Positions 17,443-21,686 of a stretch of 41,676 nt of DNA are shown piece after piece. Source of the DNA: Flavobacteriales bacterium (GTDB lineage: Bacteria > Bacteroidota > Bacteroidia > JANQJC01). Position 1 is the first letter of the stretch. Every line of letters starts with the position of its first letter. The notes beneath the pieces are model-generated. The model did not search any database. It was not told the DNA's origin and saw only the letters and a program-made list of their open reading frames with translations. A program made the position numbers and the translations under genes. The stretch is taken from assembly GCA_028281825.1 (NCBI GenBank), contig JANQJC010000103.1, forward strand, positions 1 through 41,676. The letters are read 5' to 3'.

Positions 17443-18563
17443 TATTTCCTGCTGTTTGCCAGTCTTACAATCTCATTGGCAATAGCTTCATCCGCATTAG
17501 TGAAAGCCAGGTTGCCAACGTTCTCAATTAGTTTATCTCTTTTCTCTTTGTTCTGCAATAGTTCAAGTGCCTCATTGTAAAGGCGCTCCTGTGTTTCAGT
17601 ATCCTTTACCAAAATGGCAGCATGGTGAGTAACCAAAGCCATTGCATTTCTAGTCTGGTGGTCTTCCGCCGCGAAGGGAAAAGGCACCAACACCGCAGGT
17701 TTCCTCACGATGCATATCTCAGAGATGGAGCTTGCCCCTGCCCTTGATACTATCACATCGGCAATGGCATAGGCATAATCCATCTTGCCGATAAACTCAT
17801 GCACCTTTATTCCTTTCTCTTCCAAACCTTTGGCAGCCTCTTTAGCCTGCTCATGGAAAAGTTTGCCTGTTTGCCATACCACCTGTATGTCATTCTCTAC
17901 AAACTCTTGAAGCTTGACCTTCATCGACAGGTTGATAGAACGCGCACCCAAACTGCCGCCTATCACCAAAAGGGTTTTCTTATCTGGGTTCAATCCAAAG
18001 TGCTCTATCCCTCTTTCCCGCTTACCTGAAAGATTCAGTATATCCTGCCTCACAGGATTACCCGTTAATATTATCTTCTCCTTCGGGAAAAACTTCTCCA
18101 TCCCATCATAGGCCACACATACCTTACTCGCCTTCTTGCCTAATATCTTGTTCGTTACCCCTGCATAGCTGTTTTGCTCTTGTATCAGGGTAGGTATCTT
18201 TTTCATTTGCGCTGCATACATCACAGGCCCACTCGCAAAACCACCCACACCCACAACTACATCGGGTTTAAATTTATTGATGATGTTACTCGCCTTAGTC
18301 ACACTACCTATCACCTTCAACGGGAATGTCAAGTTTTTGGCTATCGACTTTGGAGAAAGACCGCGTTGAAAACCAGCCACATTCAGCCCCTCAATTTGAT
18401 AGCCAGCCGCAGGTACCTTCTCCATCTCCATCTTGCCCTTAGCTCCCACAAATAATATTTCAGTTTCTTTTGACATTCTCTTTAACGCATTGGCAATAGC
18501 TATTGCCGGAAAAATATGGCCTCCAGTGCCACCCCCACTTATTATTACCCTAAGCGATGACAT
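17442..18563 (-). CDS. murG: Lipid II synthase MurG (GlcNAc transferase)
   Basis: MurG transfers GlcNAc from UDP-GlcNAc to lipid I on the inner face of the cytoplasmic membrane. The 373-residue GT-B protein shows GGGTGGH at 10-16, the second GVGGFASGP loop near 105, and the donor-binding region VIVSRAGASSISEI followed by PFPFAAEDHQTRNA. All sites match the family. The first 14 bases overlap the end of ftsW, and a GGAG precedes the ATG at close spacing. MurG and FtsW handling the same lipid-linked substrate fits this tight coupling. Confidence 0.97.
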   Translation of the reverse strand: MSSLRVIISGGGTGGHIFPAIAIANALKRMSKETEILFVGAKGKMEMEKVPAAGYQIEGLNVAGFQRGLSPKSIAKNLTFPLKVIGSVTKASNIINKFKPDVVVGVGGFASGPVMYAAQMKKIPTLIQEQNSYAGVTNKILGKKASKVCVAYDGMEKFFPKEKIILTGNPVRQDILNLSGKRERGIEHFGLNPDKKTLLVIGGSLGARSINLSMKVKLQEFVENDIQVVWQTGKLFHEQAKEAAKGLEEKGIKVHEFIGKMDYAYAIADVIVSRAGASSISEICIVRKPAVLVPFPFAAEDHQTRNAMALVTHHAAILVKDTETQERLYNEALELLQNKEKRDKLIENVGNLAFTNADEAIANEIVRLANSRK

Positions 18564-19761
18564 ACTCCGTATTCTCAGCTTTACTCGGTTTCTTCACCTT
18601 CTCAGCTTTAGGCTTAGCGTCTTCCTCTTGTGTGGTTGTTCTGCTCACGCTCAACATGATACCCAGCGCAATACTGGTAAACCATAATGAGGTACCACCC
18701 ATACTCAATAGTGGCAAGGGCTGACCTGTTACCGGAAAGACACCCACAGCCACAGCCATATTTATCATCCCCTGAAAGATGAGACTAAAACAACACCCCA
18801 CCGCCAGCAATGCCGCAAAGGGCTTGTCACTCTTGGTGGCTATCCGCACCCCCCTAAATAGTATTATCAGATACAAGAACAGGATAAACGCCCCGCCTGC
18901 CAATCCATATTCCTCTATAATGATAGAGTAGATATAATCTGAATAAGGGTGCGGCAAGAAATTCCTCTCCGCGCTATTACCTGGGCCTTTGCCAAACAAT
19001 CCACCTGTTGCTATGGCAATTTTAGAGTGGGTAGCCTGATAGTTATCATCCTCGTCACCTGCCCCGGCAAAGCGCTCCACACGAGCTATCCAAGTGCTCA
19101 CCCTAAACTTCTCCTGTACATTTTGTGGCAACAACAGTACTGTACCTACAAACAATCCAAAACCCACAACGGCAATACCCATCATAATACCTATATTCTT
19201 GACACTCACCCTGCCTATGAACATAATCACCAAACTGGTCACAAAAAGCAAGGCTGCCGTGGAGAAGTTAGCAGGTAATATCAGTCCACAGATGATAGCA
19301 ATAGGTAATCCTAATTGCATAAAGTCCTCTTTAAAAGTCGCACTGCCCGCCCTTCTGGCCAACTGCCGCGCAAGAAACATGATAAGTGCCAACTTCGCAA
19401 AATCAGAAGGCTGGAACGTAAGGTTAATAATTGGTATCGGTATCCACCGGTAAGCTGAGTTGATATTAGAACCCACCAAATATGCCAGTATCAATAAGGG
19501 TACTGCCAACCATATCCCTACCTGCGAAATCCGTGAGAAATAGGTATACTTGATATTGTGTATCACATACATGATACCCAAGCCCAAAAGCAAGATGATG
19601 AAATGCTTCAGGAAGTAATATTCTGTATTGCCATGCTGATATTTATAGGCCAACGTTCCCGTTGAACTATATACCGCCAAAAGGGAAATAATAGATAATA
19701 TGAGCACCACGGACCATATCACCTTATCTCCTTTCAGATATTTTTTAAATACTTGTGTCAT
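18550..19761 (-). CDS. ftsW: SEDS-family peptidoglycan glycosyltransferase FtsW
   Basis: This 403-residue protein has about ten membrane segments and is the septal glycan polymerase that works with FtsI. Typical SEDS motifs are present: the early YSSTG loop, NLTFQPSDFAKLALIMFLAR, and VFPVTGQPLPLLSMGGTSLW near the end. The C-terminal tail (about 375-403) is charged and cytoplasmic. The start is fixed by a strong AGAAGGAGG at 19767-19775, identical to that of ftsZ. The gene follows the MurD C-domain paralogue by 16 bp. Confidence 0.96.
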   Translation of the reverse strand: MTQVFKKYLKGDKVIWSVVLILSIISLLAVYSSTGTLAYKYQHGNTEYYFLKHFIILLLGLGIMYVIHNIKYTYFSRISQVGIWLAVPLLILAYLVGSNINSAYRWIPIPIINLTFQPSDFAKLALIMFLARQLARRAGSATFKEDFMQLGLPIAIICGLILPANFSTAALLFVTSLVIMFIGRVSVKNIGIMMGIAVVGFGLFVGTVLLLPQNVQEKFRVSTWIARVERFAGAGDEDDNYQATHSKIAIATGGLFGKGPGNSAERNFLPHPYSDYIYSIIIEEYGLAGGAFILFLYLIILFRGVRIATKSDKPFAALLAVGCCFSLIFQGMINMAVAVGVFPVTGQPLPLLSMGGTSLWFTSIALGIMLSVSRTTTQEEDAKPKAEKVKKPSKAENTEYVIA

Positions 19762-19777: not shown

Positions 19778-20326
19778 TCACTTTGCCTCTAGTGTCATCA
19801 CGGCTTTTCTGAATTTATCACCTCTATCCTCATAGCTGTCAAACATATCAATGCTTGAGCAGGCAGGTGATAGCAATACGGTTTCACCGGCTTGCGCCAT
19901 AGAGCTGGCAGTCATCACAGCTTCTTCAGCTGAGCTTGCAGCCACTATCATGTCCACATCACTCATGAAGGTTTTGAATATCTTACTGCAATCCTTGCCC
20001 AGGCATATAATAGATTTCACCTTATCAGACACAATTTCCTGTAGCATAGAGTAATCGCTGGTACTGTCTGAACCACCAACAATCCAAATCACAGGATTAT
20101 TCACCGTCTCTAATGAATACCAGGCCAAGTCAACATTAGTGGCCTTTGAGTCATTGATGTAATCCACACCGTTCACATTGCGGATAAACTCCAACCTGTG
20201 AGCAGAGCTATTGATATCATCCAGGCTCTCCCTGATGATGTTGTTTCTCAGTTCAAGGAAGTTGCTGAATAGACTCTTGGTTGTATTTTCAGTCACTTTT
20301 TTCACTTGTGTTTTATCTGTACTCAT
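19778..20326 (-). CDS. Stand-alone MurD C-terminal-domain paralogue
   Basis: This 182-residue protein aligns with the last third of the MurD encoded immediately upstream: HRLE (43-46), INDSKATN (57-64), IWIVGGSDSTSDY (80-92), SSAEEAV (131-137) and LLSPACSSIDMFDSYEDRG (151-169). The UDP-binding and ATP-binding (GTNGKTT) domains are absent, and the 28-bp gap to murD holds no remnant of them. The first 25 or so residues are unrelated to MurD. The Lys of the MurD motif GGIDK, equivalent by alignment to the D-Glu-binding Lys348 of E. coli MurD, is Ser88 here, while the DSKATN Lys and Thr are kept. The protein cannot be a ligase on its own. A regulatory, scaffolding or heteromeric partner role is inferred. 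Intact frame and retained motifs argue against a decaying fragment. Confidence 0.85.
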   Translation of the reverse strand: MSTDKTQVKKVTENTTKSLFSNFLELRNNIIRESLDDINSSAHRLEFIRNVNGVDYINDSKATNVDLAWYSLETVNNPVIWIVGGSDSTSDYSMLQEIVSDKVKSIICLGKDCSKIFKTFMSDVDMIVAASSAEEAVMTASSMAQAGETVLLSPACSSIDMFDSYEDRGDKFRKAVMTLEAK

Positions 20327-20354: not shown

Positions 20355-21686
20355 TTAGAGTGAGCGAACTGCTGATTTAAACTGCCTTCCCCTGTCTTCA
20401 TAGTTCTCAAATAAGTCGAAGCTGGCGCAAGCTGGTGACAATAGGACTGTATCACCTTTTCTGCCCATGTAGTATGCTGCCTTTACTGCTTCTTCGGCTG
20501 AACTTGTATCTACTATGGTATCCACAATACCACTAAATGCATCGTGTATCTTTTGGTTATCAGTACCCAGGCAAACAATGGCTTTCACTTTCTGCTTCAC
20601 CAGGTCTTTCACCATTTCATAATCATTACCCTTGTCTATACCACCCACTATCCAAATGGTAGGTCCTGTCATGCTTTCCAAAGCATACCATGCTGCATTC
20701 AGGTTAGTAGCTTTTGAGTCATTGATGAACTCTATACCACATACCTTACCCACTACTTCCAGCCTGTGGTCTACGTTCTTGTAGTCACTCAAGCACTCGC
20801 GTATTAAGTCTTTGCGGATGTCAAGCAGTTTACCTACAACTCCCGCAGCCATTGAGTTGTAAACGTTGTGTCTGCCTTGTAATGCTAATTCGTAAATAGA
20901 CATAGTAAATTGGTTATTATGGTTATCAATTATTAATTCCTCATTTCGTAGCCATGCCATTTGGCCCTGGCTGTTTTTGGTACTGAATGGACAAAGCTTT
21001 GCTTTCATTTGCCTCTTTCCCATCCCTTTCATTATTGATTCGTCATCACTGCAATAGATGAATGCATCTTCCTCCGTTTGATTTTGAGTTATCCTGAACT
21101 TACTCTGGATATAGACCTCCATCGATGCATATCGGTCTAAATGGTCTGGGGTGATGTTTAGCAGTATCGCATAATTGATGCGTGACTCAAACATGTCATC
21201 CAACTGAAAGCTGCTCAACTCTAGCACTATGTACTCAGGCTCTCTTTCAGCCAGTTGAAGCGCTAAACTCTTTCCAACATTTCCACCTAGCATCACATTC
21301 AATCCTGCTTTCTCCAGGATGTAGTGAGTCAGCATCGCAGTAGTTGTCTTCCCATTTGTGCCTGTGATACCAATGGTTTTAGCCTTGGTGTATCGTAGAG
21401 CAAACTCAATCTCTGACACTACCGGGATACCCTTCTCCCTCACCTGTTTCAGCATTTCTGCCTTTTCAGGTATGCCCGGGCTTTTTACTACTTCATCCGC
21501 ATTTAGGATGAACTCTTCCGTGTGCTTCTCTTCTTCCCATTCAATACCATGATTCCAAAGAACTTCTTTGTATTTTTCCTTCACTTTGCCTTTGTCACTG
21601 ACAAAAACATCCCATCCCTTCTTCTTTCCCAACACAGCGGCGCCAACACCACTTTCCCCAGCACCGAGTACCACCAACCTTTTCAT
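20355..21686 (-). CDS. murD: UDP-N-acetylmuramoyl-L-alanine--D-glutamate ligase MurD
   Basis: MurD adds D-glutamate to UDP-MurNAc-L-Ala with ATP. The 443-residue protein has all three domains: an N-terminal UDP-binding domain (GAGESGVGAAVLG at 8-20, KSPGIP near 68), a central ATPase domain with GTNGKTTT (109-116) and NITPDHLDRY, and the C-terminal domain with HRLE, NDSKATN (Lys325, Thr327), GGIDKGND (Lys352) and LLSPACASFD. Length and motifs are normal. The start overlaps the mraY stop (TAATG), with GAGG close upstream. A diverged copy of its C-terminal domain is the next gene. Confidence 0.97.
   Translation of the reverse strand: MKRLVVLGAGESGVGAAVLGKKKGWDVFVSDKGKVKEKYKEVLWNHGIEWEEEKHTEEFILNADEVVKSPGIPEKAEMLKQVREKGIPVVSEIEFALRYTKAKTIGITGTNGKTTTAMLTHYILEKAGLNVMLGGNVGKSLALQLAEREPEYIVLELSSFQLDDMFESRINYAILLNITPDHLDRYASMEVYIQSKFRITQNQTEEDAFIYCSDDESIMKGMGKRQMKAKLCPFSTKNSQGQMAWLRNEELIIDNHNNQFTMSIYELALQGRHNVYNSMAAGVVGKLLDIRKDLIRECLSDYKNVDHRLEVVGKVCGIEFINDSKATNLNAAWYALESMTGPTIWIVGGIDKGNDYEMVKDLVKQKVKAIVCLGTDNQKIHDAFSGIVDTIVDTSSAEEAVKAAYYMGRKGDTVLLSPACASFDLFENYEDRGRQFKSAVRSL

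Follow-up and report, generated by a model that had tools for sequence, protein, structure and literature searches.

MurD, Mur Enzyme Assemblies and the Free-Standing Protein

In MurD, the D-Glu site contacts its ligand through Lys348, Thr321, Ser415, and Phe422 (PMC3527612). The first of these follows the usual numbering without Met1 and is Lys349 in the E. coli murD gene. Three further residues of the C-terminal domain, Arg302, Asp317, and Lys319, have nucleotide-binding roles. Published work describes Mur enzymes, MraY, RodA, and MreB as interacting or co-localising, includes MurG and cytoskeletal proteins among the partners of Mur enzymes and MraY, and proposes MurG as an oligomeric scaffold for the cytoplasmic Mur enzymes (PMC6420597). 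A Mur ligase homologue can also belong to a large assembly that is not part of the Mur pathway: the plastid-encoded RNA polymerase includes PAP11/MurE-like among its subunits (PMC9456514).

The protein described here (FS) is a free-standing MurD C-terminal-domain protein of 182 aa, encoded between murD and ftsW on a contig of a Flavobacteriales bacterium (JANQJC010000103.1), of which a stretch of 41,676 nucleotides was analysed (the window). FS resembles MurD in sequence (51% identity to the C-terminal part of the neighbouring MurD) and in fold, but it has no UDP-binding or ATPase domain, carries an N-terminal helix of its own, occupies a separate gene, and in most copies lacks Lys348. The likeness to the MurG scaffold lies in the proposed gathering of Mur enzymes at the membrane; MurG, however, is an active glycosyltransferase of an unrelated fold family and is not homologous to FS. 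PAP11 offers an analogy only, as it is related to MurE and not MurD, is a whole protein and not one domain, and is part of an unrelated complex in plants. The earlier note knew of no described function for such a protein, and the open-licence literature yielded neither a described counterpart nor any description of a truncated, stand-alone, or pseudoenzyme MurD.

The FS Gene in the Window

FS (positions 19,778–20,326, minus strand) was recognised from its ORF, Pfam and NCBIfam matches, a fold search, a family alignment, and a tree. Its frame of 182 codons is intact and begins with ATG. A complete murD (20,355–21,686, minus strand), with all catalytic residues of its C-terminal domain intact, lies 28 bp upstream, and ftsW (18,550–19,761, minus strand) starts 16 bp past the FS stop. 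Promoter and terminator signals between murD and ftsW were no more frequent than in shuffled sequences, and Rfam gave no match in the window.

The sole Pfam match of FS is Mur_ligase_C (PF02875, E = 3.6 × 10−12, residues 43–156), and its score of 47.7 bits against a gathering threshold of 28.4 places FS among Mur ligase C-terminal domains. Pfam returned no Mur_ligase_M match, and no FS residues aligned to the central ATPase region of MurD (P-loop, carbamylated-Lys site). The NCBIfam murD model (TIGR01087) aligns with FS over columns 280–439 of 441 only and does not claim it as a MurD ligase, because the score of 150.5 bits lies below the curated cut-off of 211.95. The AlphaFold2 model (mean pLDDT 85.8) is confident from about residue 41, and Foldseek equates residues of about 40–180 with the C-terminal domain of solved MurDs (7u35, E = 9.9 × 10−15, rmsd 1.5 Å). 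Pfam, NCBIfam, and Foldseek thus bear out the free-standing MurD C-terminal domain that the earlier note had read from the letters between murD and ftsW; its frame is intact and tightly spaced, as that note said. No N-terminal part of a murD is joined to it, the neighbouring murD being complete with all its catalytic residues, which removes the suspicion of a broken gene.

The motifs named in that note (DSKATN and SPACSS) are likewise present, the former as INDSKATN. The segment INDSKAT (residues 57–63; 20,138–20,158, minus strand) keeps the positions of MurD Asp317, Lys319, and Thr321, and SPACSS (residues 153–158; 19,853–19,870, minus strand) includes Ser158, the equivalent of Ser415. Alignment with E. 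coli MurD places Ser88 (codon 20,063–20,065, minus strand) at Lys348, where GGSDST replaces GGIDKG, confirming the serine that had been assigned to this position by eye. FS of the window therefore lacks the D-Glu-binding lysine of a MurD ligase. This is its only loss among the C-terminal ligand residues checked; it retains Arg302, Asp317, Lys319, Thr321, Ser415, and, as Tyr, Phe422.

Residues 1–37 (20,216–20,326, minus strand) form an N-terminal extension with one helix predicted at low confidence. The first 25 or so residues, rightly described as a new N-terminus, lack a clear MurD counterpart, and the model gives them a helix with a pLDDT of 51–68. In this extension, the linker positions of the MurD central domain are eroded; the linker and central-domain contact positions ahead of the domain are near-fixed in MurD, and the position of residue 38, which is Phe in 96% of MurD, has no consensus across FS.

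Distribution and Gene Order in Bacteroidia

A second short match near murD was present in many of 60 genomes of the class. A profile built from 18 FS proteins was searched against 295 genomes of the class and found at least two matches in about 69 of them, spread over 19 family codes. Loci were fetched and read from 17 of these 19 families, and the verified free-standing copies come from 17 families, all in the class Bacteroidia. The fetched FS loci (17 families) all have intact frames and, wherever the cluster is unbroken, the order murD-FS-ftsW. This recurrence, which the earlier note had asked of relatives, argues against a recent fragment. The distance from murD to ftsW is 408–1012 bp with FS, and in FS-less Bacteroidota loci it mostly ranges from a few bp to about 130 bp; FS-less exceptions with a longer gap (L046, L168, L008, L170, and others) hold other or doubtful ORFs. 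In some families (f21, f42), FS occurs in only part of the genomes, indicating that it can be lost.

Among the sampled genomes of the same phylum, FS was not found outside the class Bacteroidia. The only such genome with two matches (G306) appears to contain a murD truncated by the end of a contig. The plasmid and phage collections held no close relative of FS, and their gene-annotated matches were murD. Labelled records that carry FS are metagenome-assembled and are assigned to Bacteroidia, Chitinophaga pinensis (a doubtful label), Flavobacteriales, and Salibacteraceae.

One genome (G042) was found to have a dispersed dcw cluster: there, FS immediately precedes ftsW, a different contig carries murD, and murG is not a neighbour. 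In all nine loci examined in family f12 (L116, L117, L148–L154), an ORF of 43–92 aa with a single transmembrane segment lies between FS and ftsW. This micro-ORF contains one strongly hydrophobic stretch; its sequence differs by genus, and its position and topology are kept. In locus L157, an ORF of 126 aa is inserted between FS and ftsW and FS is intact. This ORF resembles the four-helix proteins encoded by 23S rRNA intervening sequences.

Origin and Selection

In a maximum-likelihood tree of 86 C-terminal domains, a branch separates 31 FS and four paralogues encoded outside the dcw cluster from 51 MurDs (93/84; 92% of bootstrap trees). Since FS and the non-dcw paralogues form one clade, they are most simply explained by a single ancient duplication of part of the gene, and one origin of FS is favoured but not proven. 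Repeated independent duplications are not favoured, since the free copies fall together in a single clade (93/84, not a starred branch). FS of the window, which combines the murD/ftsW slot with a place in this clade apart from full-length MurDs, has both features by which a family of free-standing MurD C-terminal domains is proposed here. It groups with family f4 (99/92) and next with f10 and f43 (100/92), f12 is the deepest branch within FS, and branches are longer in FS than in MurD. In the MurD tree, the window, f10, and f4 likewise fall together (99/85), as expected under vertical descent.

The MurD C-terminal domains of two FS-less genomes (L024 and L035) lie nearest to the FS clade, and their N-terminal parts group with L040. 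One possible reading, with modest support, is that their murD tail was replaced by a copy of FS. A second, more diverged FS paralogue outside dcw occurs in the window's own genome (L130:5195-5833, contig C59) and in L129, L164, and L165; an aldehyde dehydrogenase gene is its neighbour in L130 and in the f4 loci L129 and L164. The active-site residues of these paralogues are mostly gone, and the dN/dS of the pair L129/L164 is 0.094.

Pairwise Nei-Gojobori dN/dS ratios, taken where dS was not saturated, were about 0.010–0.21 for FS across all families where they could be computed, 0.024–0.055 within f4, the closest sister family of the window, and 0.010–0.056 in f12; dS between the window and its nearest relative is saturated, and this pair gives no ratio. 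These values are far below 1, the level near which the earlier note would have seen a recent fragment, and together with recurrence and the tree they rule out a recent fragment or a broken murD. Of the dcw proteins compared in f12, FS is the most conserved, with a mean identity of 86% against 81% for MraY and 60% for MurD; in f38, f28, f9, f21, f42, and f45, FS evolves faster than MurD. The full-length MurD of the nine f12 loci is the least conserved dcw protein compared, and its catalytic residues are intact.

Erosion of Ligand Residues

Among 52 FS copies, which include close relatives, Lys348 is kept in 14 and lost in 38, Arg302 and Lys319 are each kept in 30 and lost in 22, and Asp317 is kept in 42. 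Structural residues persist: the equivalents of H301, N316, and P412 are found in 52/52 copies and that of R425, in the later Arg-Gly, in 51/52. The adjacent full-length MurDs have R302, D317, K319, T321, and S415 in 57/57 cases and Lys348 in 56/57, and full-length MurDs keep the ligand residues almost without exception, with or without FS in the genome. Family f12 stands at one end of the range, its FS keeping the C-terminal ligand residues checked, including Lys348 (Phe422 is replaced by Leu in one clade). Lys348 is lost in FS of the window, f4, and f10, and other families have lost more. The strongly eroded FS of L043 retains an unchanged predicted fold with the same order of elements.

A 132-aa ORF in L162 has lost every ligand residue and is, convincingly, an eroded copy by profile comparison (hhalign 97.9%, E = 3.8 × 10−13). 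Small ORFs of 99–157 aa also occupy the murD-ftsW slot in L008, L175, and L170 (f34) and in L190 (f20). The f34 pair matches FS with an hhalign probability of 51% (E = 1.6 × 10−4), the matches of L190 and L170 are not significant, and a pair of very eroded f34 candidates has a dN/dS of 0.55; that the f34 and f20 ORFs may be extremely eroded FS copies is suggestive only.

Possible Roles of FS

Comparison of sequences establishes FS as an old and selected protein of the dcw operon, derived from MurD and, as judged by its residues, mostly non-catalytic; that it is a non-catalytic MurD derivative is very likely. In an ancestral Bacteroidia lineage, the C-terminal third of murD would have been duplicated in tandem, the duplicate becoming a separate gene between murD and ftsW that was inherited vertically. 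Its ligand contacts would have been lost stepwise, and the gene would have disappeared wholly in several lineages and remained under purifying selection elsewhere. Once out of catalysis, the Rossmann-like C-terminal fold could serve as a protein-binding module, a use suggested over ligand chemistry because the ligand sites erode while the fold stays. As an adaptor, FS would help to keep the cytoplasmic Mur enzymes at the assembly of FtsW, the septal synthase, and would so link the supply of precursors to synthesis at the septum. A role on the side of FtsW is favoured because FS always precedes ftsW, remains next to it in G042, and is separated from it in f12 by the single-transmembrane ORF; the reported interactions of Mur enzymes, MurG, MraY, and cytoskeletal proteins (PMC6420597) provide a plausible setting.

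This adaptor role in a precursor-to-FtsW complex is preferred tentatively and falls a little short of being probable. The link to FtsW consists of gene order and a single broken cluster, and operon position alone could explain it. FS of the window and of f12 retains most or all of the ligand residues, for which an adaptor would have no use, and several lineages do without FS, indicating that it is dispensable there. FtsW C-terminal tails do not differ between genomes with and without FS (median 5 vs 3 residues), which rules out longer tails as a docking site. The earlier note had proposed a selected non-catalytic partner, namely a MurD regulator, a scaffold linking precursor synthesis to FtsW, or a ligand binder; the selected, free-standing, and non-catalytic character stands, and the choice among the three leans, on indirect evidence, towards FtsW.

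The main rival, and a serious one, is a regulator that would attach in trans to the full-length enzyme MurD, or to the central domain of that enzyme, and would tune the addition of D-Glu by competing with or stabilising the open/closed movement of the native C-terminal domain. This is somewhat unlikely. A direct paralogue of MurD translated right after murD, with most ligand contacts and the SPAC/RG lobe kept in the window clade, would suit such a role, but the near-fixed contact positions of the MurD linker and central domain are eroded in FS (residue 38, for example), FS stayed with ftsW and not with murD in G042, and in f12 MurD is fast-evolving whereas FS is nearly fixed. It is improbable that FS is a sensor that would bind D-Glu, ATP/ADP, or UDP-MurNAc-L-Ala and signal precursor status to the divisome: the equivalents of Arg302, Asp317, Lys319, Thr321, Ser415, and Phe/Tyr422 in the window, with Lys348 as well in f12, would permit it, but copies outside f12 have lost nucleotide- or glutamate-contacting residues in varying combinations, and the P-loop and UDP-binding domains of MurD are absent. 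The complete and intact full-length MurDs next door, and the absence of Lys348 from most FS copies, make it very improbable that FS works as a catalytic domain in trans with the other domains of MurD, even if the slowly evolving f12 copies keep almost all the ligand residues checked. A neutral remnant, to which the loss of the gene in some lineages and the high ratio of the eroded f34 candidates might point, is scarcely credible in view of the low ratios elsewhere, the intact frames, and the one ancient origin, and for the window clade it is contradicted by the tree and dN/dS.

Under the adaptor reading in its wider form, FS, as an ancient pseudoenzyme derived from MurD and joined in one family by the single-transmembrane micro-protein, would be a membrane-side FtsW adaptor and part of the divisome or Mur complex in much of Bacteroidia, and in some lineages a hardly recognisable small protein; this is possible but doubtful. 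Few bacterial gene clusters are as well studied or as conserved as dcw, yet many Bacteroidia hold an extra selected gene there. FS clearly exemplifies a catalytic domain that has left its enzyme and been retained in another capacity, and it lends itself as a natural test of how septal FtsW and precursor synthesis are coupled. In many uncultured Bacteroidia it is an undescribed component of the cell-wall machinery, probably a structural or regulatory one.
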